A stretch of 64,000 bases of DNA from the NCBI GenBank assembly GCA_013298715.1, contig JAAFIQ010000002.1, positions 248,001 through 312,000 on the forward strand, read 5' to 3'. Below are positions 13,298 through 24,576 of the stretch, piece by piece. Numbering within the stretch: position 1 is the first letter of the stretch; each line of letters opens with the position of its first letter. This DNA is from Bacteroidota bacterium (GTDB taxonomy: Bacteria > Bacteroidota > Bacteroidia > B-17B0 > Aurantibacillaceae). Both the position numbers and the translations under genes were made by a program. The notes beneath the pieces are model-generated. The model did no database searches and was not told where the DNA came from. It saw only the letters and a program-made list of their open reading frames with translations.

Positions 13298-14395
13298 GTG
13301 ATTGGCGTAAGATTTAATAAACACGAGAATAAACCAAGCGATTTATTTGCAAAATTGCTTACTATTTTTAAGCAGTTAATTACCTACACCAGCGGGGATG
13401 TTGATGAGGCAATAGATTGGTTAAAACAATTGGATAAAGAATACGAGCTTACAACTCCAGATTACACCATAGACGATTTTATAAATGAGCTAAAAGAAAA
13501 AGGTTATTTAAAAAATGAAAAGGATAGTGGTGGAAATGGATTAGCTATCACTGCCAAAACTGAACAACTTATAAGAGACAATGCCTTAGAAAAAATATTT
13601 GGGAAACTAAAAAAATCTAATTCTGGAAATCATTCTACAAAGTTTACTGGTAAAGGAAGCGAAGAAATTAATGACGAACTCCGTGCTTTTGAATTTGGTG
13701 ATTCTCCTCAAAACATTGCAATGATGGAAAGTTTACAACAAGCGCAGATTAATCATGGCTTGGATGAATTCAAATTAACCGAAGCAGATTTATTAGTGCA
13801 TGAACAAGAGTTCAAAACGCAAACATCAACCGTTTTAATGATTGATATTAGCCATAGCATGATACTGTATGGTGAAGACAGAATTACACCTGCAAAGATG
13901 GTGGCGATGGCTTTGGTTGAAATGATTAAGCGTAAATATGCAAAAGACAGCATTGATATTATTGTTTTTGGTAATGAAGCATGGCAAATACAAATTAAGG
14001 ATTTGCCTTATTTACAAGTTGGACCTTATCACACAAATACAGTTGCTGGGCTTGAGTTAGCCATGTCTATTTTACAAAAGAAAAAAGCAAGCAACAAACA
14101 AATTTTTATGATTACAGATGGGAAACCAAGTTGCTTAAAAGAAAATGGCATGTATTATAAAAATAGTAATGGCTTGGATAGGCGTATAGTAAATAAGTGC
14201 TTAACTCTTGCAGCCGCTTGCAAACGAAGTAAGATTGGTATAACTACCTTTATGGTAGCTAACGATCAGTATTTACAAACTTTTATAGATGAGTTTACAC
14301 AAGCCAATCAAGGAAAGGCGTATTTTACAGGCTTACAAGGTTTAGGTGAAATGATTTTTAGAGATTACACAAATAATAAACGTAAAAAAATTTAA
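13298..14395 (+). CDS. VWA-domain protein, partner of the MoxR/ChlI-type ATPase
   Basis: The 365-residue protein starts at a GTG (13298). Its first ~170 residues are mostly helical. From about 177 comes a von Willebrand A domain with TVLMIDISHSM, where D183-S185-S187 form the MIDAS DxSxS, and with MITDGKPSC further on. Soluble VWA proteins of this type work as partners of the AAA+ ATPase encoded 13 bp downstream, as in Mg-chelatase (ChlD/ChlI) or MoxR/VWA chaperone pairs that insert metal or remodel a target. No signal peptide or TM segment is seen, so it is cytosolic. The MITE-like element ends only 35 bp before the start and may carry or displace the promoter. Confidence 0.82.
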   Translation: MIGVRFNKHENKPSDLFAKLLTIFKQLITYTSGDVDEAIDWLKQLDKEYELTTPDYTIDDFINELKEKGYLKNEKDSGGNGLAITAKTEQLIRDNALEKIFGKLKKSNSGNHSTKFTGKGSEEINDELRAFEFGDSPQNIAMMESLQQAQINHGLDEFKLTEADLLVHEQEFKTQTSTVLMIDISHSMILYGEDRITPAKMVAMALVEMIKRKYAKDSIDIIVFGNEAWQIQIKDLPYLQVGPYHTNTVAGLELAMSILQKKKASNKQIFMITDGKPSCLKENGMYYKNSNGLDRRIVNKCLTLAAACKRSKIGITTFMVANDQYLQTFIDEFTQANQGKAYFTGLQGLGEMIFRDYTNNKRKKI

Positions 14396-14408
14396 ATAAA
14401 CTTTCAAA

Positions 14409-15887
14409 ATGGATATAAATAAAATAACAATACTTGGCGATTTAAAAAAGACAAATTATGTTTCAAAATCGATTAAACAAGAGTTGAGAGATAATTTAAT
14501 TTTAAAATTAAAAAATAAAGAAACAATTTTTGATTCGATTTACGGTTACGAGCAAACTGTTATACCCGAACTACAACGTGCAATTTTGAGCAAACATAAT
14601 ATTTTATTTTTAGGATTGCGTGGCCAAGCCAAAACTAAAATGGCCAGACAATTGGTAAATTTGTTAGATGAGTACATTCCTGTTGTTGCAAATAGTCCCT
14701 TAAATGATTGCCCATTAAATCCAATTTCGAACTTTGCAAAAAATTTAATTAGTGAGTTGGGCGATAAAACACCTATTGCTTGGATACACAGAAGCGAAAG
14801 ATTTGCCGAGAAGTTAGCCACACCAGATGTAAGTGTTGCGGATTTAATAGGGGATGTTGACCCAATAAAAGCTGCGAATTTAAAATTGTCGTTTGCTGAT
14901 GAAAAAGTTATACATTACGGATTAATCCCTCGAAGCAACCGTTTTATTTTTGTAATAAACGAATTACCCGATTTACAAGCACGTTTACAAGTGGCTCTGT
15001 TTAATATTTTGCAAGAAGGTGATATTCAAATTCGTGGCTTCAATATTCGTATACCACTGGATGTACAATTCGTATTCACCGCAAATCCAGAAGATTATAC
15101 AAATCGTGGAAGTATTGTTACACCGCTTAAAGATAGAATTGGTGCGCAAATTCTTACACATTACCCAAAATCAATTGCGCTATCAAAACAAATCACCCAA
15201 AGTCAAGCCAAATTAAGTAATGAACAACAAAAAATTGAAGTAAGCGAGGTTTTAAAAAACCTTATTGAGCAAATTGCAGTTGAAGCTAGGTCAAGTGAAT
15301 TCGTAGATTCTAAAAGTGGCGTAAGTGCAAGGCTCACTATTAGTGCCTACGAATGTTTGGTGAGCAGTGCCGAATTACGGTTTTTAACCAACAATCAGCC
15401 TTATACATTTGCACGGGTAAATGATGTATATGGAGCTATTGCCGCCATTAATGGTAAAGTAGAGTTGGTTTATGAAGGCGAGCAAGAGGGAGCAGCCATT
15501 GTAGCAAATAATTTAATAAGCCAAGCCATACGTACATTGTTTGTAGAATTGTTTGAAGATCCTGCTAAACTTAAAAAGAAAAATCAAGTAAATCCTTATG
15601 CTGAAATTGTGAGCTGGTTTAATCAAGAAAATAAAATTGATTTGTTGGATACTGAAACTGATAAAGGCTACACTGCTGCTTTAAAAATTGTAGAAGGTTT
15701 AGATGAATTGGTTTCTAAATTTCATCCAACTGTAAAAGGGAATGAAAAATTAGTATTAATGGAATTTGCTTTGCATGGCTTAGCAAATCATTCACTCATC
15801 AACAAATCTATTTTAGAAAAAGGAATTTCTTTTAAAGATTTATTTGGTGCCTTAATTGGTAAAAATGATTTTGGGAATTTGATGTAA
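14409..15887 (+). CDS. MoxR/Mg-chelatase (ChlI)-type AAA+ ATPase
   Basis: The 492-residue ATPase has Walker A GLRGQAKT at 69-76. The ChlI-like insertions SDVDPIKAANLK-type and GLIPRSNRFIFVINELPDL (Walker B region) follow, then LFNILQEGDIQIRGFNIRIPLDVQFVFTANPEDYTNRG with sensor 1 Asn, and PLKDRIGAQI. This matches ATP-binding proteins annotated as magnesium chelatase-like or sigma-54-interaction-like in Bacteroidota that pair with a VWA protein. The pair probably acts as a chaperone or metal-insertion machine on an unknown client. No porphyrin pathway genes are nearby, so true Mg-chelatase activity is unlikely. It is co-transcribed with the VWA gene. Confidence 0.85.
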   Translation: MDINKITILGDLKKTNYVSKSIKQELRDNLILKLKNKETIFDSIYGYEQTVIPELQRAILSKHNILFLGLRGQAKTKMARQLVNLLDEYIPVVANSPLNDCPLNPISNFAKNLISELGDKTPIAWIHRSERFAEKLATPDVSVADLIGDVDPIKAANLKLSFADEKVIHYGLIPRSNRFIFVINELPDLQARLQVALFNILQEGDIQIRGFNIRIPLDVQFVFTANPEDYTNRGSIVTPLKDRIGAQILTHYPKSIALSKQITQSQAKLSNEQQKIEVSEVLKNLIEQIAVEARSSEFVDSKSGVSARLTISAYECLVSSAELRFLTNNQPYTFARVNDVYGAIAAINGKVELVYEGEQEGAAIVANNLISQAIRTLFVELFEDPAKLKKKNQVNPYAEIVSWFNQENKIDLLDTETDKGYTAALKIVEGLDELVSKFHPTVKGNEKLVLMEFALHGLANHSLINKSILEKGISFKDLFGALIGKNDFGNLM

Positions 15888-15911
15888 ATCACCACGAGAA
15901 TTTAGACTCAT

Positions 15912-17309
15912 TTAAACCCTAATCCCTACAACACAAACATCGTCTACTTGTTCGTGATTTCCTTTCCACGATTGATAATGGTTTTCAATAATAGAATTTA
16001 ACTCAATCATCGTTTTATGGTGGTTGGAAATTAATAAATTTTCAAAATTTTTGCGCATTAATTTTTTTCCATTTGGCCCTCCAAATTGGTCGGCATAGCC
16101 ATCGCTAAACAAATAAATGGTGTCGCCTTTTTCAAGTTGCAATGTTAAATTAGTGTATGGCAAAGCCACATCGGTTAGGTTACCAATGGCTTGTTTATTT
16201 GGTTTTAGTGTAATTAATTCTCCTTGCCTTACTACCAAAACCGGATTGTTTGCGCCAGCATACGCCATTTGCAAAGTATCCATATTTATGGCAACAAAAG
16301 CTATATCCATGCCATCTCTTATCTCTTCGCCATACCCATGGTTAAGTGTTTTTATAATGTTTTTATTTAAATGATCCAACGCTTCTGCTGGCGTATTTAC
16401 ATTTTTATCTACTGATGATTGGTGTAAAAAATTGCTTCCAAGTAAACTCATAAACGCTCCAGGTACACCGTGCCCCGTACAATCTGCAACAGCCATTAAT
16501 ACATAGTCCTGTGCTGGGCTATTTGCAGGTGTTGTTCTAATTTTTTTTGCCCAATAAAAATCGCCACAAACAATATCACGTGGTAAGTAATACACAAAAA
16601 AATTATCACCAAATAAATCTTTTAGTAAATTTTTTGGAGGTAATAGTGCTTCTTGCAAGCGTTTGGCATAGCGTAAACTACTTGTTATTTCTATATTTTT
16701 TTGTTCAACTTCTGTTTTTTGAATTTCTATAATATTTTTCGATTCTTCTAATTCCAATCTACTTTTTATTTCATTAAACGTTAATCTGTAACGTTGCCTA
16801 ATTATAAAAACACAAGCTATTGCTACAGTTAAAGTAAGTAGACCACCATTCACTAAAAATTCGTCAACAGAAATTTTACTAAACCAAATAAAAAATACAA
16901 CATTGCTTATTACAGTTGCAATTAATAAAATGATAGAAAGTTTTACTTCCCACAAAACAAGCATACCAACACAAATAAAAAGTGCCATGTAGGCAAAGGT
17001 GTGTTTTTGCATGTGCGGCACATCCATCATATTCCACATAAAGGCATTCTGAATAGAAATACCAAGCACCAACAAAAACATAATAAAGTAAATACTTAGT
17101 TTAGTTTTATTTCTGCTTAAAAGAAAAGCCAAACTCACCAAACAGACTGATAACCTAAAAATAAAAAAGGGTTTAAATAATTCAGGAACGGTAAGGTAAT
17201 CGCCTAAACTCCATAGCAAATTAAGGGCAAAACCAACCCAGCAAGCAATTACATGAAATTTTTCGGTAGATTTATTAAATTCAGTTTTTATTTTATCGTC
17301 GTTTACCAT
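15912..17309 (-). CDS. Membrane-bound SpoIIE/PP2C-type serine phosphatase
   Basis: The 465-residue protein begins with about six TM helices (roughly 20-185), followed by a short coiled coil (LEESKNIIEIQKTEVEQKNIEIT). The C-terminal ~250 residues are a SpoIIE/PP2C domain with the metal-binding motifs VCGDFYWA, ADCTGHGVPGAFMS and SDGYADQFGG. Proteins of this plan dephosphorylate Ser/Thr on regulators such as anti-sigma-factor antagonists, responding to a membrane signal. The N-terminal region resembles a 7TM-like sensor but no ligand can be inferred. It is convergent with the AAA gene and divergent from enolase. Confidence 0.85.
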   Translation of the reverse strand: MVNDDKIKTEFNKSTEKFHVIACWVGFALNLLWSLGDYLTVPELFKPFFIFRLSVCLVSLAFLLSRNKTKLSIYFIMFLLVLGISIQNAFMWNMMDVPHMQKHTFAYMALFICVGMLVLWEVKLSIILLIATVISNVVFFIWFSKISVDEFLVNGGLLTLTVAIACVFIIRQRYRLTFNEIKSRLELEESKNIIEIQKTEVEQKNIEITSSLRYAKRLQEALLPPKNLLKDLFGDNFFVYYLPRDIVCGDFYWAKKIRTTPANSPAQDYVLMAVADCTGHGVPGAFMSLLGSNFLHQSSVDKNVNTPAEALDHLNKNIIKTLNHGYGEEIRDGMDIAFVAINMDTLQMAYAGANNPVLVVRQGELITLKPNKQAIGNLTDVALPYTNLTLQLEKGDTIYLFSDGYADQFGGPNGKKLMRKNFENLLISNHHKTMIELNSIIENHYQSWKGNHEQVDDVCVVGIRV

Positions 17310-19083: not shown

Positions 19084-19124
19084 TTTGATGGATAAAAATA
19101 AATAGTAACTTTGTATTACAAAGT
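19084..19124 (+). promoter_or_regulatory. Promoter with palindromic operator ACTTTG-N5-CAAAGT (site 1)
   Basis: TTTG at 19084-19087 and TAACTTTG at 19106-19113 are 18 bp apart and match the Bacteroidota -33/-7 pair. The -7 box overlaps a perfect palindrome, ACTTTG-TATTA-CAAAGT, at 19108-19124, placed over the expected transcription start and only 9 bp from the ATG at 19134. A protein bound here would block initiation. The same palindrome recurs at 20099-20115, and a winged-helix regulator is encoded between the two sites. Confidence 0.65.
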
Positions 19125-19133
19125 GCTTTACAA

Positions 19134-19772
19134 ATGACAGAAGAAAAACAACAACTCGAAGCGTTAAGGGATATTAGAAGCCTAATGCAACAATCCTCAA
19201 AATTTTTATCGTTGAGCGGTTTATCAGGAATTTTTGCTGGAGTTTATGCCTTAGTTGGCGCCTATTTAGGACACATTGTTATCTCCAAATTTTTAGAAAA
19301 CGTAAAACACGGAACAAATTTTACGTTTGAGTACCGGAGAATGATTTTACTTTCGGTGTTAATTTGTTCTGGTGTTCTTATACTTTCGTTGTTAACAGCA
19401 TTTTATTTTTCTAATACAAAATCAAAAAAGTTAGGTCAAAAATTATTCGATCACACCACCTTGCGTTTATTTCTAAATATGTTTATTCCACTTTTGGCAG
19501 GTGGAATTTTTTGTATCTCTTTATTGTATCATGGCGGTGTATATATGCTATTAGTTGCGCCTTCAATGCTAATTTTTTACGGTTTGGCCTTAGTAAATGG
19601 AAGCAAATACACCTTGCATGATATTCGTTATTTGGGATTGCTTGAAATAGCAATTGGTATAGCCTCTTGTTTTTATTTAAGCGCCGGCTTGTGGTTTTGG
19701 GCAATTGGATTTGGTGCCTTGCATATAATATATGGCGCCTATACGTGGTTTAAACACGATCGACATTTGTAA
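19134..19772 (+). CDS. Multi-TM membrane protein of unknown function, first gene of a wHTH-regulated operon
   Basis: The 212-residue protein has a short cytosolic N terminus (EEKQQLEALRDIRSLMQQSSKF) followed by about six hydrophobic helices (around 27-48, 75-92, 115-135, 138-155, 165-185 and 186-202) and a basic C-terminal tail. I do not recognise an enzymatic motif. Similar membrane proteins in Bacteroidota are commonly encoded just before a small winged-helix regulator, as here (6 bp gap), so it may be its sensor or co-regulated target. The leader is extremely short, because the operator ends 9 bp before the ATG. Confidence 0.75.
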   Translation: MTEEKQQLEALRDIRSLMQQSSKFLSLSGLSGIFAGVYALVGAYLGHIVISKFLENVKHGTNFTFEYRRMILLSVLICSGVLILSLLTAFYFSNTKSKKLGQKLFDHTTLRLFLNMFIPLLAGGIFCISLLYHGGVYMLLVAPSMLIFYGLALVNGSKYTLHDIRYLGLLEIAIGIASCFYLSAGLWFWAIGFGALHIIYGAYTWFKHDRHL

Positions 19773-19778
19773 TAATCT

Positions 19779-20081
19779 GTGATAAATCCTAATATACATA
19801 AATTAAATAAGGCCTTTGAAAGTAGGGTTAGACTTGGTATCATGAGCGTGCTAATGGTTAATGATACTGTAGATTTTAATACTTTGAAAGAATTATTGCA
19901 AGTAACAGATGGCAATTTAGCTAGTCACAATGCGGCTTTAGAGAAAGATGGCTATTTACACATCAAAAAAGAATTTGTTGGAAAGAAAACATTAACCACT
20001 TATAGCGCAACAAAGGCGGGTGTTAAAGCGTTTGAGGAACATTTGAATGTACTTGAAAAATTAATTAAAAAGATAGATTAA
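19779..20081 (+). CDS. Small winged-helix transcriptional regulator (HTH_34 / MarR-like)
   Basis: The 100-residue protein consists of one winged-helix domain: RVRLGIMSVLMVNDTVDF, then FNTLKELLQVTDGNLASHNAAL as the helix-turn-helix, and the wing KKEFVGKKTLTTYSAT, followed by a C-terminal dimer helix. It fits the small wHTH family of Bacteroidota that resembles the MarR/ArsR fold. The start is GTG at 19779. It is the natural candidate to bind the palindrome ACTTTG-N5-CAAAGT found before its own operon and before the Coq4-like gene, giving autorepression plus repression of that gene. This assignment is inference from position. Confidence 0.85.
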   Translation: MINPNIHKLNKAFESRVRLGIMSVLMVNDTVDFNTLKELLQVTDGNLASHNAALEKDGYLHIKKEFVGKKTLTTYSATKAGVKAFEEHLNVLEKLIKKID

Positions 20082-20098
20082 AATTTTTTTGCCTAATT

Positions 20099-20128
20099 AC
20101 TTTGAAATACAAAGTGCTTTTAATTTTG
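20099..20128 (+). promoter_or_regulatory. Promoter with palindromic operator ACTTTG-N5-CAAAGT (site 2)
   Basis: The 17-bp palindrome ACTTTG-AAATA-CAAAGT at 20099-20115 repeats site 1 (19108-19124) in both half-sites and in the following GTGCTTT. A TAATTTTG -7 box lies at 20121-20128, just ahead of ATG 20134, so here the operator occupies the -33 side. The site lies in the short gap after the regulator gene and gives the Coq4-like gene its own regulated promoter. Confidence 0.6.
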
Positions 20129-20133
20129 TAAAA

Positions 20134-20631
20134 ATGAAAATATATTATAAATATGCAGAAGGAGTGAGAGAAATAACAATTTTGTTGTTGTTAGATTCTG
20201 TAGCGCCATTACACGCTAGAATAAATATTAAGCGCCAACCATGGCGATTAAACTCTCACCAATTAATCCAGTTTCCTGAAAATAGTTTAGGACATTCACT
20301 TGGTATTTTTTATCAACAAGAAAATTTTGAACCTGTTGCAAGGGCCGAAAGGCACGATGTATTTCATGTATTATTTAATTACAAAACCAATGTGTTTGAT
20401 GAATGTAAACTTCAATTCTTTTTGTGGGGAAATGGTAAAGCATCGCTTTTTACTTGCGGGGCTTGCTTGTTGAGCATACTCTTCTTTCCTAATAAATTAA
20501 AACATTTTATTAAACATTTTAAAAAAGGAAAATCGGTTCAAAATATCTCCAAATTAAATTTTAAAGAATTACTAAATAAAAATATAGATGAGTTAAGAAG
20601 CGAATTAAACTTTAAGACAGATATAGTTTAA
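20134..20631 (+). CDS. Coq4-like protein A
   Basis: The 165-residue protein has QFPENSLGHSLG followed by the COQ4 signature H-D-x-x-H-x(11)-E: HDVFH, eleven residues, then E in DECKLQFF. A hydrophobic stretch and a C-terminal ELRSEL-type helix follow, as in COQ4. In ubiquinone makers COQ4 binds metal and the quinone head group and takes part in C1 decarboxylation and complex assembly. Bacteroidota usually make menaquinone, so the substrate here is unknown. I chose ATG 20134; a longer frame from TTG 20089 would run through the operator and -7 box. A second copy lies at 21429-21947. The N terminal ~35 residues are not conserved between the two. Confidence 0.75.
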   Translation: MKIYYKYAEGVREITILLLLDSVAPLHARINIKRQPWRLNSHQLIQFPENSLGHSLGIFYQQENFEPVARAERHDVFHVLFNYKTNVFDECKLQFFLWGNGKASLFTCGACLLSILFFPNKLKHFIKHFKKGKSVQNISKLNFKELLNKNIDELRSELNFKTDIV

Positions 20632-20683
20632 GCCCAAAAACGTAATTAAGAAGCAAACATAATTAACAATAAAAAAAACAAAC

Positions 20684-21160
20684 ATGAAAAAAATCAGAAT
20701 CTACCTAGCAGCTTTTATCACACTTCTTGTATTAAGTGGTGTTACAGCATTTCCATTAAAAACAGAAGTAACTTTTTTAATGAACCATTTAGATTGGTTC
20801 AACTCTACTTTGAAGGGATGGATAATTAGTGTGAACAATGCTGTGCAAGCCACACCAGATATAGTATTATATGGCACTGATTGGTTAGCCTTTGCACATA
20901 TTATCATTGCTCTTTTTTTTATTCCAGTATTTATTAATCCAATAAAATACCAAATCAATTTAAACATTGGCATGGTTGCTTGTCTGGCAGTATTTCCGCT
21001 AGCTTTTATTTGAGGACCAATTAGAGGTATTCCGTTTTTTCATCAATTAATAGATTGCAGTTTTGGAATAGGAGGCATTGCGCTTTTGTATTTTATAAAA
21101 CGAAAAGTGAGCATACTAACAATTGATAACCCACATTTATTAACCATGACTAATGCTTAA
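20684..21160 (+). pseudogene. Four-TM membrane protein gene interrupted by an in-frame TGA
   Basis: From ATG 20684 the frame codes 109 residues (signal-like first helix, then NHLDWFNSTLKGWI, YGTDWLAFAHIIIALFFIP, a third helix) up to TGA at 21011-21013. Without any frame change it continues GPIRGIPFFHQLIDCSFGIGG, a fourth helix and a basic tail, to TAA at 21158-21160. The stop sits where a Trp (TGG) would complete (W)GPIRGIPFF, a pattern I associate with small Bacteroidota membrane proteins of unknown function. A single G-to-A change explains it. Other genes in the window end in TGA, so the code is standard. It may be a pseudogene, a truncated working protein or a sequence error. Confidence 0.7.
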
Positions 21161-21210
21161 TTATTATTTAAAGTTGATAATAAATAAGGTTTACTGTTTA
21201 AGATTGAGAA

Positions 21211-21365
21211 CAGGTCGCTCCTACGGAGCTTTGCAAACTGATTTTGTTTATATTATTACAAACATAACACTCCTACGGAGTTCTGCTAAATGCCCTCTAG
21301 AGGCTAACTGTTTGTGAAAACATTAATACTAATTAAAATATTAGCTCCATAGGAGCGCCCTATTG
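21211..21365. repeat. Intergenic palindrome cluster (GCTCC-TAC-GGAGC type)
   Basis: The 268-bp gap holds no gene but does hold four short palindromes: GCTCC-TAC-GGAGC at 21217-21229, ACTCC-TAC-GGAGT at 21269-21281, CCTCTAGAGG at 21294-21303 and GCTCC-ATA-GGAGC at 21344-21356. The first and last are also inverted copies of each other, so the whole block can fold into a multi-branched hairpin. Such GC-rich palindromes in an AT-rich background resemble intergenic REP or MITE-like repeats of Bacteroidota. They may come from insertion between the broken membrane gene and Coq4-like B. Confidence 0.6.
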
Positions 21366-21428
21366 TTTCTAAAATTAATAACCAATATCACTAACTGAAA
21401 TAACGACTAATAAAAAAGAAAAATATAT

Positions 21429-21947
21429 ATGAAAACACTATTAAATCCAATCATCCGATTACACGAAAAAACATCCAATTTTACCGCACAAAAAATTGGT
21501 CCACTTGTTTTTAATTTCGGAACAGATAATAAACCATGGGGGTTAAGCACAGCCATGCTTAAACAGTTTCCTGAAGGTAGTTTAGGAAAAGTTGTTGGCG
21601 AATTTCTTTACAAAAACAGAATGGAACCAATAGCAGGAGCAGAGTCTCACGATTTGTACCATGTGCTTTTTGATTATTCAACATCGTTTAAAGACGAAAT
21701 TGGTTTGCAATTTTTTTTAAGAGGTAATGGTAAAAAATCCATCGCCTCTTTTTTAACCTCCATTGGCGCTTGGGTTGTGCTTCCCTTTAGCTACAACTAC
21801 TTAAAATCAAGTTATGAAAAAGGAAAAAACTGCATAGACATTTCTCAATTAAATTTAAGAGAATTGCTTTATAAAGACTTTGAAAGTGTGAAACAAGAAT
21901 TATTTTCAAAAGTATCTTCAACTCAATTAAAGAGTCACGTCGAGTAG
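21429..21947 (+). CDS. Coq4-like protein B
   Basis: This 172-residue paralogue of the product at 20134-20631 has FPEGSLGKVVGEFLYKNRMEP, very close to the PEGSLG...FL..N..SP segment of COQ4, then HDLYH-x(11)-E (HDLYHVLFDYSTSFKDE), IGLQFF, a hydrophobic stretch and a C-terminal LLYKDFESVKQEL helix matching the COQ4 end. All expected metal-ligand residues are present. No Coq or Ubi genes lie nearby. The last few codons (SHVE, stop) are formed by the left arm of a repeat element, so the original C terminus may have been slightly longer or different. Quinone- or isoprenoid-binding is inferred from family membership; the reaction is unknown. Confidence 0.78.
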   Translation: MKTLLNPIIRLHEKTSNFTAQKIGPLVFNFGTDNKPWGLSTAMLKQFPEGSLGKVVGEFLYKNRMEPIAGAESHDLYHVLFDYSTSFKDEIGLQFFLRGNGKKSIASFLTSIGAWVVLPFSYNYLKSSYEKGKNCIDISQLNLRELLYKDFESVKQELFSKVSSTQLKSHVE

Positions 21948-22070
21948 TTTTTGTAAGGAAGTGATGTTTTGACAAAAACGTATCGAGACGCTTAATACTT
22001 TTTGAATAAGAAGTTTTAAGTCAAACGTCTCGATACAATTTTGTAAGAGGCAAGCAAAATTTACTCGACG
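21938..22070. repeat. Long imperfect inverted repeat overlapping the end of Coq4-like B
   Basis: Outer arms CGTCGAGTA (21938-21946) and TACTCGACG (22062-22070) and inner arms GTATCGAGACG (21980-21990) and CGTCTCGATAC (22026-22036) are perfect inverted pairs. Around the inner arms the match extends to 16 of 18 (CAAAA..GTATCGAGACG). The hairpin ends 45 bp before the DUF4173 gene. It looks like a dispersed intergenic repeat that inserted at the 3' end of the gene and now supplies its stop codon. It could also attenuate read-through into DUF4173. Confidence 0.65.
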
Positions 22071-22115
22071 AGACATGAGTCAAAATTAAATTTTACACAT
22101 AATAAATAAAATAAA

Positions 22116-23585
22116 ATGAAAAAAAACGATTGTATTCTTATCGCAGCCACGGCGGCCTATAGCCTGTTGTTTTATCAACAAAATGCTGGTGTAAATTTTT
22201 TACTATTTACAATACTACTCATTGCTATTTTTCTGGTGCGAGATAAAAACTTGCTAAAACAGCATAAATGGTTATGGGCGGCATCAATGGCGTTGGTAAG
22301 CAGTGCGTGTGTATTTGTTCATTCAAGCAGTTTAAGTATTCTAGCAAATTGTTTTTCAATACTTTTGCTTTCTGCTTTTTCTGTTAATGTTAAAACGTCG
22401 AGTATTTTTTCTATACTGTTTTCTATCTATTCTATTTTAAGTGCAATAGTGTTTGTAATAATTGATGCAATTGCGCGTTCAGAAAGTAAAACAACAGAAA
22501 ATTCAAATTCAAAAAAGTGGTATAAATTTTTAGCAGCGGCAATTGTATTCTTACTTTGTATTTTGTTTTTTGAGATGTATAAAAGCGCAAATCCATTGTT
22601 TGCAGAGAATACAAAATGGATTAATTTCAATTTTATTAGCGTAATGTGGGTGTTGTTTACCTTAAGTGGTTTTTTGATTGCTTATGGTATTATAAAACAC
22701 CGTACTATACCAAGTATAGAAACATGGGAAAATCAACTTCCTAACGAGAACAAAAAAGAAGAAAATAGTAATTGGAAACGAATAGAAATTGAACGATTTG
22801 CAGGAATTTTATTATTTCTCTTTTTGAATTTTATGCTCATAATTTTAAACTTTGGTGATATAACTTCTATTTGGTTTAAGGCTGCCTTGCCAGTGGGGAT
22901 ATCACATTCAGATTTCGTGCATAATGGAGTAGGTGTAATAATTTTATCACTAGTTATTGCAACAAGTGTTTTAATGTACTTATACAGAGGCGATTTTAGG
23001 TCGTTTAAATATTCATCAAGCTTAAAACTTTTAATATTATTATGGATAGTTCAAAGTTTAATTATGCTTTTTTCCACTACTTGTCGTAATCATATTTATG
23101 TAAGTTCATTTAATTTAACCAACAAGCGTATTGGTGTTTACGTTTGGTTGCTACTAGCAGCAATAGGTTTGGTGATTGTTTATTTTAAAATTGTAAAAGA
23201 AAAATCTAATTGGTATTTAATTCGTAAAAATTTTTCTGTGTGGCTTTCGGTGCTTGTTATTAGCGCTACTGTAAATTGGGATATAATTATTACTCGGTAT
23301 AATTTGAGCAATAAGCCATTTAAAGATGTTGATTTTTATTATTTATTTTCATTATCGTATTCAAATATTCCTGAGTTAATTGAGGTTACAAAAGACAAAG
23401 ACTTTCGATTAATTAATCATAAATTAAGAAATTTTAAAAGTAGATATGATAGGTATTATTCTGAGCAATACACCCAACACTTGAGTAATAAAATTAAAAA
23501 TTACCTAGTAAATTATAATGCCAGTTGGCAAAGTTTTGATTTAAGAGATTACAGAATAAATAAAAGTTTAATCATTAAAAGTTAA
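22116..23585 (+). CDS. DUF4173/DUF4153 multi-TM membrane protein
   Basis: The 489-residue inner-membrane protein has about eleven hydrophobic helices. The C-terminal half shows the DUF4173 pattern: PVGISHSDFVHNGVGVII, YLYRGDFR and KRIGVYVWLLLAAIGL. A soluble tail follows, with NLSNKPFKDVDFYYLFSLSYSNIPEL, where homologues also place a short periplasmic region. Its function is not known. The next two genes start 2 bp after each preceding stop, so DUF4173, DUF1361 and diacylglycerol kinase form one transcript concerned with the cell envelope. Confidence 0.85.
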   Translation: MKKNDCILIAATAAYSLLFYQQNAGVNFLLFTILLIAIFLVRDKNLLKQHKWLWAASMALVSSACVFVHSSSLSILANCFSILLLSAFSVNVKTSSIFSILFSIYSILSAIVFVIIDAIARSESKTTENSNSKKWYKFLAAAIVFLLCILFFEMYKSANPLFAENTKWINFNFISVMWVLFTLSGFLIAYGIIKHRTIPSIETWENQLPNENKKEENSNWKRIEIERFAGILLFLFLNFMLIILNFGDITSIWFKAALPVGISHSDFVHNGVGVIILSLVIATSVLMYLYRGDFRSFKYSSSLKLLILLWIVQSLIMLFSTTCRNHIYVSSFNLTNKRIGVYVWLLLAAIGLVIVYFKIVKEKSNWYLIRKNFSVWLSVLVISATVNWDIIITRYNLSNKPFKDVDFYYLFSLSYSNIPELIEVTKDKDFRLINHKLRNFKSRYDRYYSEQYTQHLSNKIKNYLVNYNASWQSFDLRDYRINKSLIIKS

Positions 23586-23587
23586 AT

Positions 23588-24214
23588 ATGATGAAATTTA
23601 ATATATTAAAGCAATGGTTTGCTTTTTGCTTGATGTTGGTATTAGCAAGGGTTTTTTATACAAGAAATTTATCATTTGTGTTTCTGTTTTGGAATTTATT
23701 TTTAGCATATCTACCTTATTTTTTTATGAAAAGATTAGCAATTACAAAATCACGCAGAGTAAAATTTTTGTTGGTTGTATTGTCGGTATTATTCTTACCA
23801 AACGCTCCTTATATTTTAACAGATTTGTTTCATCTTCACAAAAATTTAATTGCTCCCATGTGGTTTGATTTGATTTTAATTTCGAGTTTTGCCTTATTAG
23901 GCTTATTATATTTTGTAGTGAGTTATAAATTAATTCTTAAATATTTAAAGGAGAATATTCGTACCAAAACTTTATTTTATACTTCAAAGATTTTTATTTT
24001 ATTGTCTTCTGGCTACGGTATTTATTTGGGCAGGTATTTGCGTTTTAATAGTTGGGACGTGGTTTCAAATCCAATTACATTATTTAGTAAAATGGCGGAT
24101 TCAGTTTTTAATAGTTATCACATAAAAGAAACAGTTGCAATAACAGTTGTGTTTGCTTTATTTTTATATTTGGTTACTTCAATTTTTGAACAAAAACCAA
24201 AGTTCGAACTTTAA
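23588..24214 (+). CDS. DUF1361 membrane protein
   Basis: The 208-residue protein has about six TM helices. It carries the DUF1361 hallmarks LFWNLFLAYLPYF near residues 36-48, FLPNAPYILTDLFHL near 75-90, the WFDLILI segment, and SSGYGIYLGRYLRFNSWD near 139-155. The family is widespread, of unknown biochemical function, and usually sits in the inner membrane. It is tightly packed between DUF4173 (2 bp) and diacylglycerol kinase (2 bp). Confidence 0.87.
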   Translation: MMKFNILKQWFAFCLMLVLARVFYTRNLSFVFLFWNLFLAYLPYFFMKRLAITKSRRVKFLLVVLSVLFLPNAPYILTDLFHLHKNLIAPMWFDLILISSFALLGLLYFVVSYKLILKYLKENIRTKTLFYTSKIFILLSSGYGIYLGRYLRFNSWDVVSNPITLFSKMADSVFNSYHIKETVAITVVFALFLYLVTSIFEQKPKFEL

Positions 24215-24216
24215 AA

Positions 24217-24576
24217 ATGAATTACTTTAAAAAAAGATATTTATCATTTGTTTATGCCTTTAATGGTTTGTTCGCTGCAATTAAATCCGAAGCTCATATG
24301 CGAATTCATTTATTAACTTTACTAATTGTTGTACTGGCAGGATTTTATTTTGGTGTTACTAAAACAGAGTGGCTATGGCTTTTGATTTGCTGTGCTTTGG
24401 TTATTAGTGCCGAACTTTTTAATACCGCTATTGAGGCGCTTTGTAACGAAATTACAAAAGAGAAGAAAGAGAATATAAAATTTATAAAGGACGTAAGTGC
24501 GGCAGCGGTATTAGTTTTAAGTGTATTTTCAGTTGTTGTAGCAATATTAATTTTTTGGAAATATTTTTTTAGATAA
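24217..24576 (+). CDS. dgkA: Diacylglycerol/undecaprenol kinase (DgkA family)
   Basis: The 119-residue, three-helix membrane kinase has E26 in the first cytosolic segment (IKSEAHMRIH), and its active-site helix reads SAELFNTAIEALCNEI, matching the E-x-x-N-T-A-I-E motif. A KDVSAAAVL helix follows. These enzymes phosphorylate diacylglycerol or, in many bacteria, undecaprenol at the inner membrane, recycling lipid carrier or lipid. The motif usually ends in a conserved Asp (AIE..vD), which is Asn/Glu here (ALCNEI). It is the last gene of the DUF4173-DUF1361 operon. Confidence 0.88.
   Translation: MNYFKKRYLSFVYAFNGLFAAIKSEAHMRIHLLTLLIVVLAGFYFGVTKTEWLWLLICCALVISAELFNTAIEALCNEITKEKKENIKFIKDVSAAAVLVLSVFSVVVAILIFWKYFFR

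Follow-up and report, generated by a model that had tools for sequence, protein, structure and literature searches.

In human and yeast, COQ4 is presented by PMC7615680 and PMC9774615 as an enzyme or complex member acting on a prenylated ring. Two structures of Coq4 homologues from Nostoc exist, 3msq and 6e12, the second being Alr8543, in which H120, D121, H124 and E136 serve as magnesium ligands according to PMC9774615. The third relevant system is gammaproteobacterial CreD (CreBC); loss of CreD impairs envelope integrity in Stenotrophomonas, as stated in PMC4689548. Here, a gene cluster encoding two Coq4-like proteins is analyzed on the + strand of a 64,000-nucleotide stretch (the window, meaning the whole stretch analyzed) of contig JAAFIQ010000002.1, from the 4.01-Mb genome of a Bacteroidota bacterium (GCA_013298715.1). 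The two genes, coq4a (20134-20631, +, 165 residues from its ATG) and coq4b (21429-21947, +, 172 residues), follow a membrane protein, a winged-helix regulator and a pair of palindromic operators, and this arrangement recurs across the phylum. The combined evidence suggests that the COQ4 fold is also used for a regulated task at the membrane that has nothing to do with coenzyme Q.

Both proteins fall within the Coq4 family. Against a PF05019 cut-off of 22.9 bits, coq4a scored 48.5 bits and coq4b 26.8 bits. By this profile coq4b is marginal: a six-frame search of the genome recovered coq4a only. NCBIfam returned nothing useful for either protein. An earlier interpretation made from the letters of the window (the sequence-only reading) had singled out these two short open reading frames (ORFs) by a shared H-D-x-x-H-x(11)-E motif and, in one of them, an exact PEGSLG stretch, and had named a PF05019 search as a check; the frames, the motif and both family matches were verified. 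In coq4b the PEGSLG...P stretch is found unaltered; in coq4a it reads PENSLG. All 79 homologous ORFs, which comprise 75 distinct sequences, carry the HDxxHx(11)E motif, and none of the 955 remaining ORFs at these loci does. The motif is thus not due to chance.

To place the family structurally, the PDB was searched by sequence with a profile of 51 relatives, and only the two Nostoc entries were returned at E <= 0.1 (3msq, 6.3e-7; 6e12, 3.3e-4). An AlphaFold2 model of coq4b reached a predicted local distance difference test score (pLDDT) of 82.9 and a predicted template modelling score of 0.75, and Foldseek matched it at E <= 0.001 to 6e12 (1.3e-5, probability 1.00) and 3msq (1.9e-4) and to no other entry, with moderate template modelling scores (0.47-0.57) and 16-19% identity. 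The model superimposed on 6e12 with a Z score of 13.8 (root-mean-square deviation 2.7 Å over 135 residues) and on 3msq with a Z score of 12.0 (3.7 Å over 145 residues); the next structure, the best outside the Coq4 family, reached 3.6. Helical models may attain Z scores of 13 through a common arrangement of helices, and here the two Nostoc structures stand far above every other row. The modelled relationship between coq4b and the Nostoc Coq4 proteins thus appears distant but clear. The superposition that the sequence-only reading had asked for both proteins therefore stands for coq4b, the protein that was modelled; coq4a probably shares the fold, judging from its 39.7% identity to coq4b across 136 residues.

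The profile alignment also points to a conserved, putative metal site. Residues H74, D75, H78 and E90 of coq4b align with the four magnesium ligands of Alr8543, and not one of the 51 aligned sequences departs from them at any of the four positions. Once the nine positions of the scan pattern are excluded, nine of the 145 well-filled columns show no variation; that all four motif columns would be among them by chance has a probability of 7e-6. This figure is generous, since it gives every column the same weight and assumes independent sequences, although the 51 rows include identical ones. By alignment to 6e12, we infer that the histidine, aspartate and glutamate side chains lie close together. 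With the profile matches present and these residues presumably adjacent, neither outcome that the sequence-only reading had named as refuting came up.

Phylogenetic analysis of 77 rows placed coq4a in clade a (11 rows, support 98/83) and coq4b in clade b (14 rows, 100/99), with several long branches that leave the inner order unsure. The two genes are accordingly best read as old paralogues belonging to separate clades. Coq4-like pairs are also present at five other loci (L003, L021, L023, L027 and L028).

The second component of the cluster is a putative regulatory pair flanked by operators. A 212-residue membrane protein, termed memb212 (19134-19772, +), is followed by an HTH_34 winged-helix regulator (19779-20081, +, GTG start) that matches PF13601 at 99.1 bits (cut-off 27) over profile positions 1-80 of 80, which bears out the regulator named by the sequence-only reading. 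Operator A (19108-19124, ACTTTGTATTACAAAGT) overlaps a TAACTTTG box directly 5' of the memb212 start, and operator B (20099-20115, ACTTTGAAATACAAAGT) sits between the regulator and coq4a. An alternative in-frame TTG start at 20089 would give coq4a a longer ORF crossing operator B. The palindrome ACTTTG-N5-CAAAGT occurs at just these two places in the 4.01-Mb genome, flanking the memb212/HTH_34 pair, and a reversed control pattern does not occur in it at all.

The operators were then surveyed, with one mismatch allowed, at 73 loci: 67 named Coq4-type loci and six others (L001-L006), L001 being the window's own. Across 815,884 bases, 136 matches were found, compared with 5 for the control pattern. 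Site A lies near the memb212 start in 63 of the 65 loci where memb212 was called, and site B directly follows HTH_34 in 64 of the 66 loci where HTH_34 was called. The operator palindromes shared within the cluster are real, in agreement with the sequence-only reading. Bacteroidota promoters carry a TTTG box at -33 and a TAnnTTTG box at -7. In 53 of 63 loci a TAnnTTTG box runs across the palindrome of site A, and 61 of 63 have a TTG or TTTG 16-22 bases further upstream, by a loose test. Because these boxes match the Bacteroidota promoter, a protein bound at site A would block it, and for this reason HTH_34 is termed a putative repressor.

The neighborhoods of the 67 named loci provide further evidence for a conserved module. 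These loci came from one scan, with one genome per species, that detects a single nine-residue pattern, and all are titled Bacteroidota or genera of that phylum; genes were counted within up to 6 kb, with family names taken from representatives. memb212 is present in 62 of 67 loci and HTH_34 in 61 of 67, where the misses at L026, L054 and L059 may reflect the longest-ORF rule, under which a small gene beneath an overlapping longer frame is dropped. DUF4153 is found in 52 of 67 and CreD in 8 of 67; either is found in 60, and the two together in none. This regular link to multi-transmembrane neighbors agrees with the sequence-only reading, which had tentatively joined the pair to such proteins and had named a neighborhood survey as a check. 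Wherever at least three of the key genes were called, they lie on one strand (64/64 loci). Seven loci lack both DUF4153 and CreD (L022, L030, L033, L034, L035, L041 and L052), and at L022, L033 and L041 the stored DNA stops shortly 3' of Coq4. The plan is repeated in Sphingobacterium and Flavobacterium (with CreD) and in the window's own lineage (with DUF4153), and Saprospiraceae and Crocinitomicaceae keep the memb212-HTH_34-Coq4 part without DUF4153 or CreD.

The same regulatory unit also occurs without Coq4. In a sample of 148 genomes from the phylum, operator matches were present in 62; these were not used as evidence alone, because the control pattern also matches many genomes. Twenty stretches were examined: 19 around operator sites in this sample, of which 13 have paired sites about 1-1.6 kb apart and six have single sites, and one known Coq4 carrier. 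memb212 and/or HTH_34 accompany the sites in 13 of 13 paired stretches, compared with one of six single ones; over all 20, both genes are present in 12, one of them in three and neither in five. CreD follows in seven stretches (L138, L140, L145, L146, L147, L149 and L153), DUF4153 in five, and both in none. Coq4 appears in two of the 20, L149 (with CreD) and L157 (with DUF4153). Eight stretches, six with CreD and two with DUF4153, belong to genomes lacking any Coq4 match, and the genomes of two further DUF4153 stretches (L141 and L144) carry Coq4 elsewhere. Since the module can thus stand ahead of CreD or DUF4153 where the genome has no Coq4 match, Coq4 is accessory cargo. Taken together, the gene order identifies a module that is widespread in Bacteroidota and usually carries DUF4153 or CreD, Coq4 being an optional addition.

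In the window, the cargo continues beyond coq4b with a DUF4153 integral membrane protein (22116-23585, +; PF13687, 139.9 bits), a DUF1361 membrane protein (23588-24214, +; PF07099, 126.9 bits) and a protein of the prokaryotic diacylglycerol kinase (DAGK) family (24217-24576, +; PF01219, 114.8 bits), a family that includes undecaprenol kinases. DUF1361 is found in 19 of the 67 named loci. A calcineurin-like phosphoesterase cluster is a frequent cargo (33/67; representative L060:4761-5597, 46.2 bits), and genes of the MPAB/Lcp-type oxygenase family adjoin a Coq4-like gene at L052:6576-7562 (147.1 bits) and, in Flavobacterium aquatile LMG 4008, at L085:5147-5911 (23.4 bits, cut-off 23). The MPAB/Lcp-type family takes its name from rubber oxygenase. 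The DAGK and MPAB/Lcp neighbors fit an isoprenoid or lipid theme without fixing the substrate.

With family, fold, motif conservation, synteny and operator conservation computed, the module order reads operator A, memb212, HTH_34, operator B, cargo. In the scheme that we infer for repression, sensing, catalysis and substrate, the HTH_34 protein would bind the ACTTTG-N5-CAAAGT palindromes, the first of which covers the TAnnTTTG promoter box, and would thereby repress both the unit that encodes it and the cargo. This repression would be relieved by a membrane signal, in the sensing of which memb212 probably assists, and the cargo, here two paralogous compact and probably metal-dependent Coq4-fold proteins with the DUF4153, DUF1361 and DAGK-family proteins, would restore the inner membrane. 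There the Coq4-like proteins would use their fold to bind a prenyl or acyl lipid, most likely menaquinone or a polyprenol. The bound lipid would probably be changed rather than just held, because the metal site is invariant. An inner-membrane or envelope module under HTH_34 repression, with Coq4-like proteins that act on an isoprenoid or acyl lipid other than ubiquinone, has in our judgment an even chance of being the correct reading. A bolder version can be offered only tentatively: the HTH_34/memb212 switch may sense the state of the inner membrane and induce an enzyme with the Coq4 fold, which would remodel menaquinone or lipids of the undecaprenyl type in envelope stress, with CreD and DUF4153 as interchangeable partners.

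Several observations weigh against this lipid-acting envelope module. The survey sample is partly repeated, as the proteins of L002, L004, L005 and L006 are identical to those of named loci, and it is uneven: 40 of the 77 tree rows form one Weeksellaceae clade, so that locus counts overstate independent events. A TAnnTTTG box is found at site B in only 20 of 64 loci, and repression at B would thus need another geometry. At L031, L032 and L035, Coq4 loci whose flanks are long, neither the regulator nor memb212 nor any operator match is present, and the DAGK link is limited to 8 of the 67 named loci. The window proteins are some 35-60 residues shorter than the Nostoc chains, and their lipid pocket may differ. 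The distribution of this Coq4 type is patchy: it is found in nine of the 148 phylum-sample genomes (the window's own included, one at 20.1 bits only) and in 10 of 60 relatives (own included). This patchiness, together with the shorter chains, the low identity to the solved relatives and the internal stops in the Coq4 matches of three other genomes (G061, G083 and G036), leaves room for a non-catalytic or dispensable role. Finally, the operon itself shows wear in the window, namely an in-frame TGA in a small membrane protein gene and a palindrome-bearing 268-base gap 5' of coq4b.

The strongest competitor is a non-catalytic role, in which the Coq4-like proteins are carriers or scaffolds that hold a prenyl or acyl lipid and present it to a membrane partner such as DUF4153 or CreD. 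The entry title of 6e12 records bound oleic acid, an earlier, obsolete entry of Alr8543 held geranylgeranyl monophosphate according to PMC9774615, and Coq4 lies 75 bases or fewer from DUF4153 or CreD in 38 of the 60 loci with either gene. However, the invariance of four metal ligands in 51 of 51 sequences seems beyond the need of a plain carrier, and zinc-dependent decarboxylation has been reported for human COQ4 in PMC7615680. A carrier role is possible and is to be taken seriously, if clearly the less probable account.

A second alternative is that the cluster is eroding in this genome and that its Coq4-like genes are decaying leftovers which may no longer matter here. The clearest sign of wear is in the small membrane protein gene (20684-21013, +), where an in-frame TGA at 21011-21013 falls on a cysteine invariant in 11 of 11 aligned relatives, with the frame remaining open and homologous on to 21160. 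This TGA is most likely a nonsense change, as no selenocysteine machinery reached its cut-off. Selenocysteine was considered and rejected on that ground: of 15 tRNA-Sec matches in the genome none exceeded 47 bits (best 38.6), the eight best of the 15 being ordinary tRNAs, and the best SelB match reached 190.4 bits against a cut-off of 242.25 and spanned positions 1-278 of 581 only. The 268-base gap holds a palindromic stretch (21218-21355) containing three of the window's four CTCCTACGGAG matches, two exact and one on the opposite strand with a mismatch; 0.07 matches would be expected across the whole window. Where the gene order is unchanged, as in seven relatives (L003-L005, L022 and L024-L026), this gap measures 30 bases or fewer, or the genes overlap. 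A further set of nested inverted repeats (21934-22074, arms of 22 and 20 nucleotides) supplies the last coq4b codons and fills the gap before DUF4153; this 168-base gap is not unusual, with 114-189 bases at L021, L026, L027 and L028. Further loci of the same genome, 78,660 bases in all, contain no copies of the palindromic stretches, and the status of a dispersed repeat is thus unsupported. The internal stops in the three Coq4 matches mentioned above would also fit decay. Against these signs, the window still has intact frames for both Coq4-like proteins, the regulator, DUF4153 and DUF1361, along with both operators, and a decayed cluster is unlikely.

A third alternative is a role in menaquinone synthesis, for instance as a second decarboxylase on prenylated naphthoate in the futalosine route, in the way that animal COQ4 works on prenylated benzoate. 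For the human protein, PMC7615680 (2024) reports decarboxylation at C1 of the ubiquinone precursor, and the host has candidate genes for the route. Six UbiA-family matches were detected in the genome, five of them above cut-off, including one MqnP-like protein, one heme O synthase and one nearest to geranylgeranylglycerol-phosphate geranylgeranyltransferases, with the remaining three unassigned. The MqnP-like prenyltransferase scored 283.4 bits with TIGR01475, yet fell below the cut-offs of three MqnP models. Two MqnC-family relatives scored 425.6 bits (2.5 short of the cut-off of 428.1) and 337.3 bits; the second radical SAM protein is presumably the one that goes by the name MqnE. Together with a UbiD-type decarboxylase (207.6 bits, 610-residue frame), these genes point to menaquinone made by the futalosine route, as far as their profile scores indicate. 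On the other hand, that decarboxylase is already present and no menaquinone gene was recognized beside the Coq4-like genes. Furthermore, Coq4 is hardly a core step, with a match in only seven of 36 other genomes of the same genus (one weak, at 23.5 bits, and one with an internal stop) and none in the remaining 29. A menaquinone role is accordingly more improbable still than decay.

True ubiquinone biosynthesis, for which only the family name and the PF05019 match speak, is so improbable that it can be set aside: the best score of the six UbiA-family matches with the ubiquinone-type prenyltransferase equivalog TIGR01474 was 119.2 against a cut-off of 275.45, and PF05019 matched one cyanobacterium alone among 14 control genomes, with no match in E. 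coli or Caulobacter, so that the family does not track ubiquinone. The MqnP-, MqnC- and UbiD-like genes and the lack of a Coq4 match in 29 of 36 same-genus genomes also speak against it. The doubt that the sequence-only reading had cast on a ubiquinone role is thus upheld in the families searched, and such a role for the Coq4-like proteins is unlikely. Its related claim, that the window holds no other Coq or Ubi gene, stood for the UbiA and UbiD families, whose genome matches all lie outside the 64-kb window; other Coq/Ubi families were not searched one by one. As a whole, that interpretation, a regulated lipid- or quinone-modifying system with membrane partners, is partly supported.

The remaining features of the cluster were also inspected. 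memb212, the regular partner of the regulator, is predicted to be all-helical (model pLDDT 85.6); it has only a sub-cut-off Pfam match, and Foldseek returned no match at E <= 0.001. A known fold was considered for it and rejected, the best VIA Z score of 8.4, to a designed helical barrel, lying within the background for helical models. Anti-phage defense was likewise rejected: PADLOC gave a weak Csa3-type match to the regulator (21.4 bits) and none to five other proteins of the unit. Upstream of the cluster lie enolase and acylphosphatase genes, and further away (13298-17309) a VWA protein and AAA ATPase pair is followed by a SpoIIE-type phosphatase on the opposite strand.

If the bolder version given above, a switch-controlled lipid-remodeling enzyme, is correct, the COQ4 fold would have a second biological job apart from coenzyme Q. 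COQ4 is a disease gene in humans, and its chemistry has been described only recently (PMC7615680, 2024); the cluster offers a bacterial setting, confined to one operon and equipped with a predicted switch and paired operators, where the role of Coq4 can be examined. For the CreD and DUF4153 genes of Bacteroidota it also supplies a precise candidate operator together with a candidate regulator. A literature search covering Coq4 in Bacteroidetes or with menaquinone, CreD in Bacteroidetes, and DUF4153, PF13601, PF13687, HTH_34 and DUF1361 gave, among the matches listed, no title or abstract describing an HTH_34/Coq4 unit and no assigned job for COQ4 relatives outside ubiquinone makers, most subscription journals lying outside its coverage.

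The cluster can finally be set against the known systems. With Nostoc Alr8543 (6e12) and 3msq, the window proteins share the fold, the metal motif and the PEGxLG stretch. Nostoc is not known to make ubiquinone, and a host without it would be a further likeness. The window proteins differ in length (165-172 residues, compared with 207-212 in the solved chains), in the low sequence identity noted above, and in their setting within an HTH_34 module with DUF4153. With human and yeast COQ4 they share the HDxxHx(11)E metal motif, whereas the window's genome has no ubiquinone-type prenyltransferase above cut-off among the UbiA-family matches checked. Gammaproteobacterial CreD is related to the cluster by its role as the alternative cargo of the same Bacteroidota module; in the window, however, the neighboring regulator is HTH_34 with a membrane partner, and DUF4153 stands in the place of CreD.

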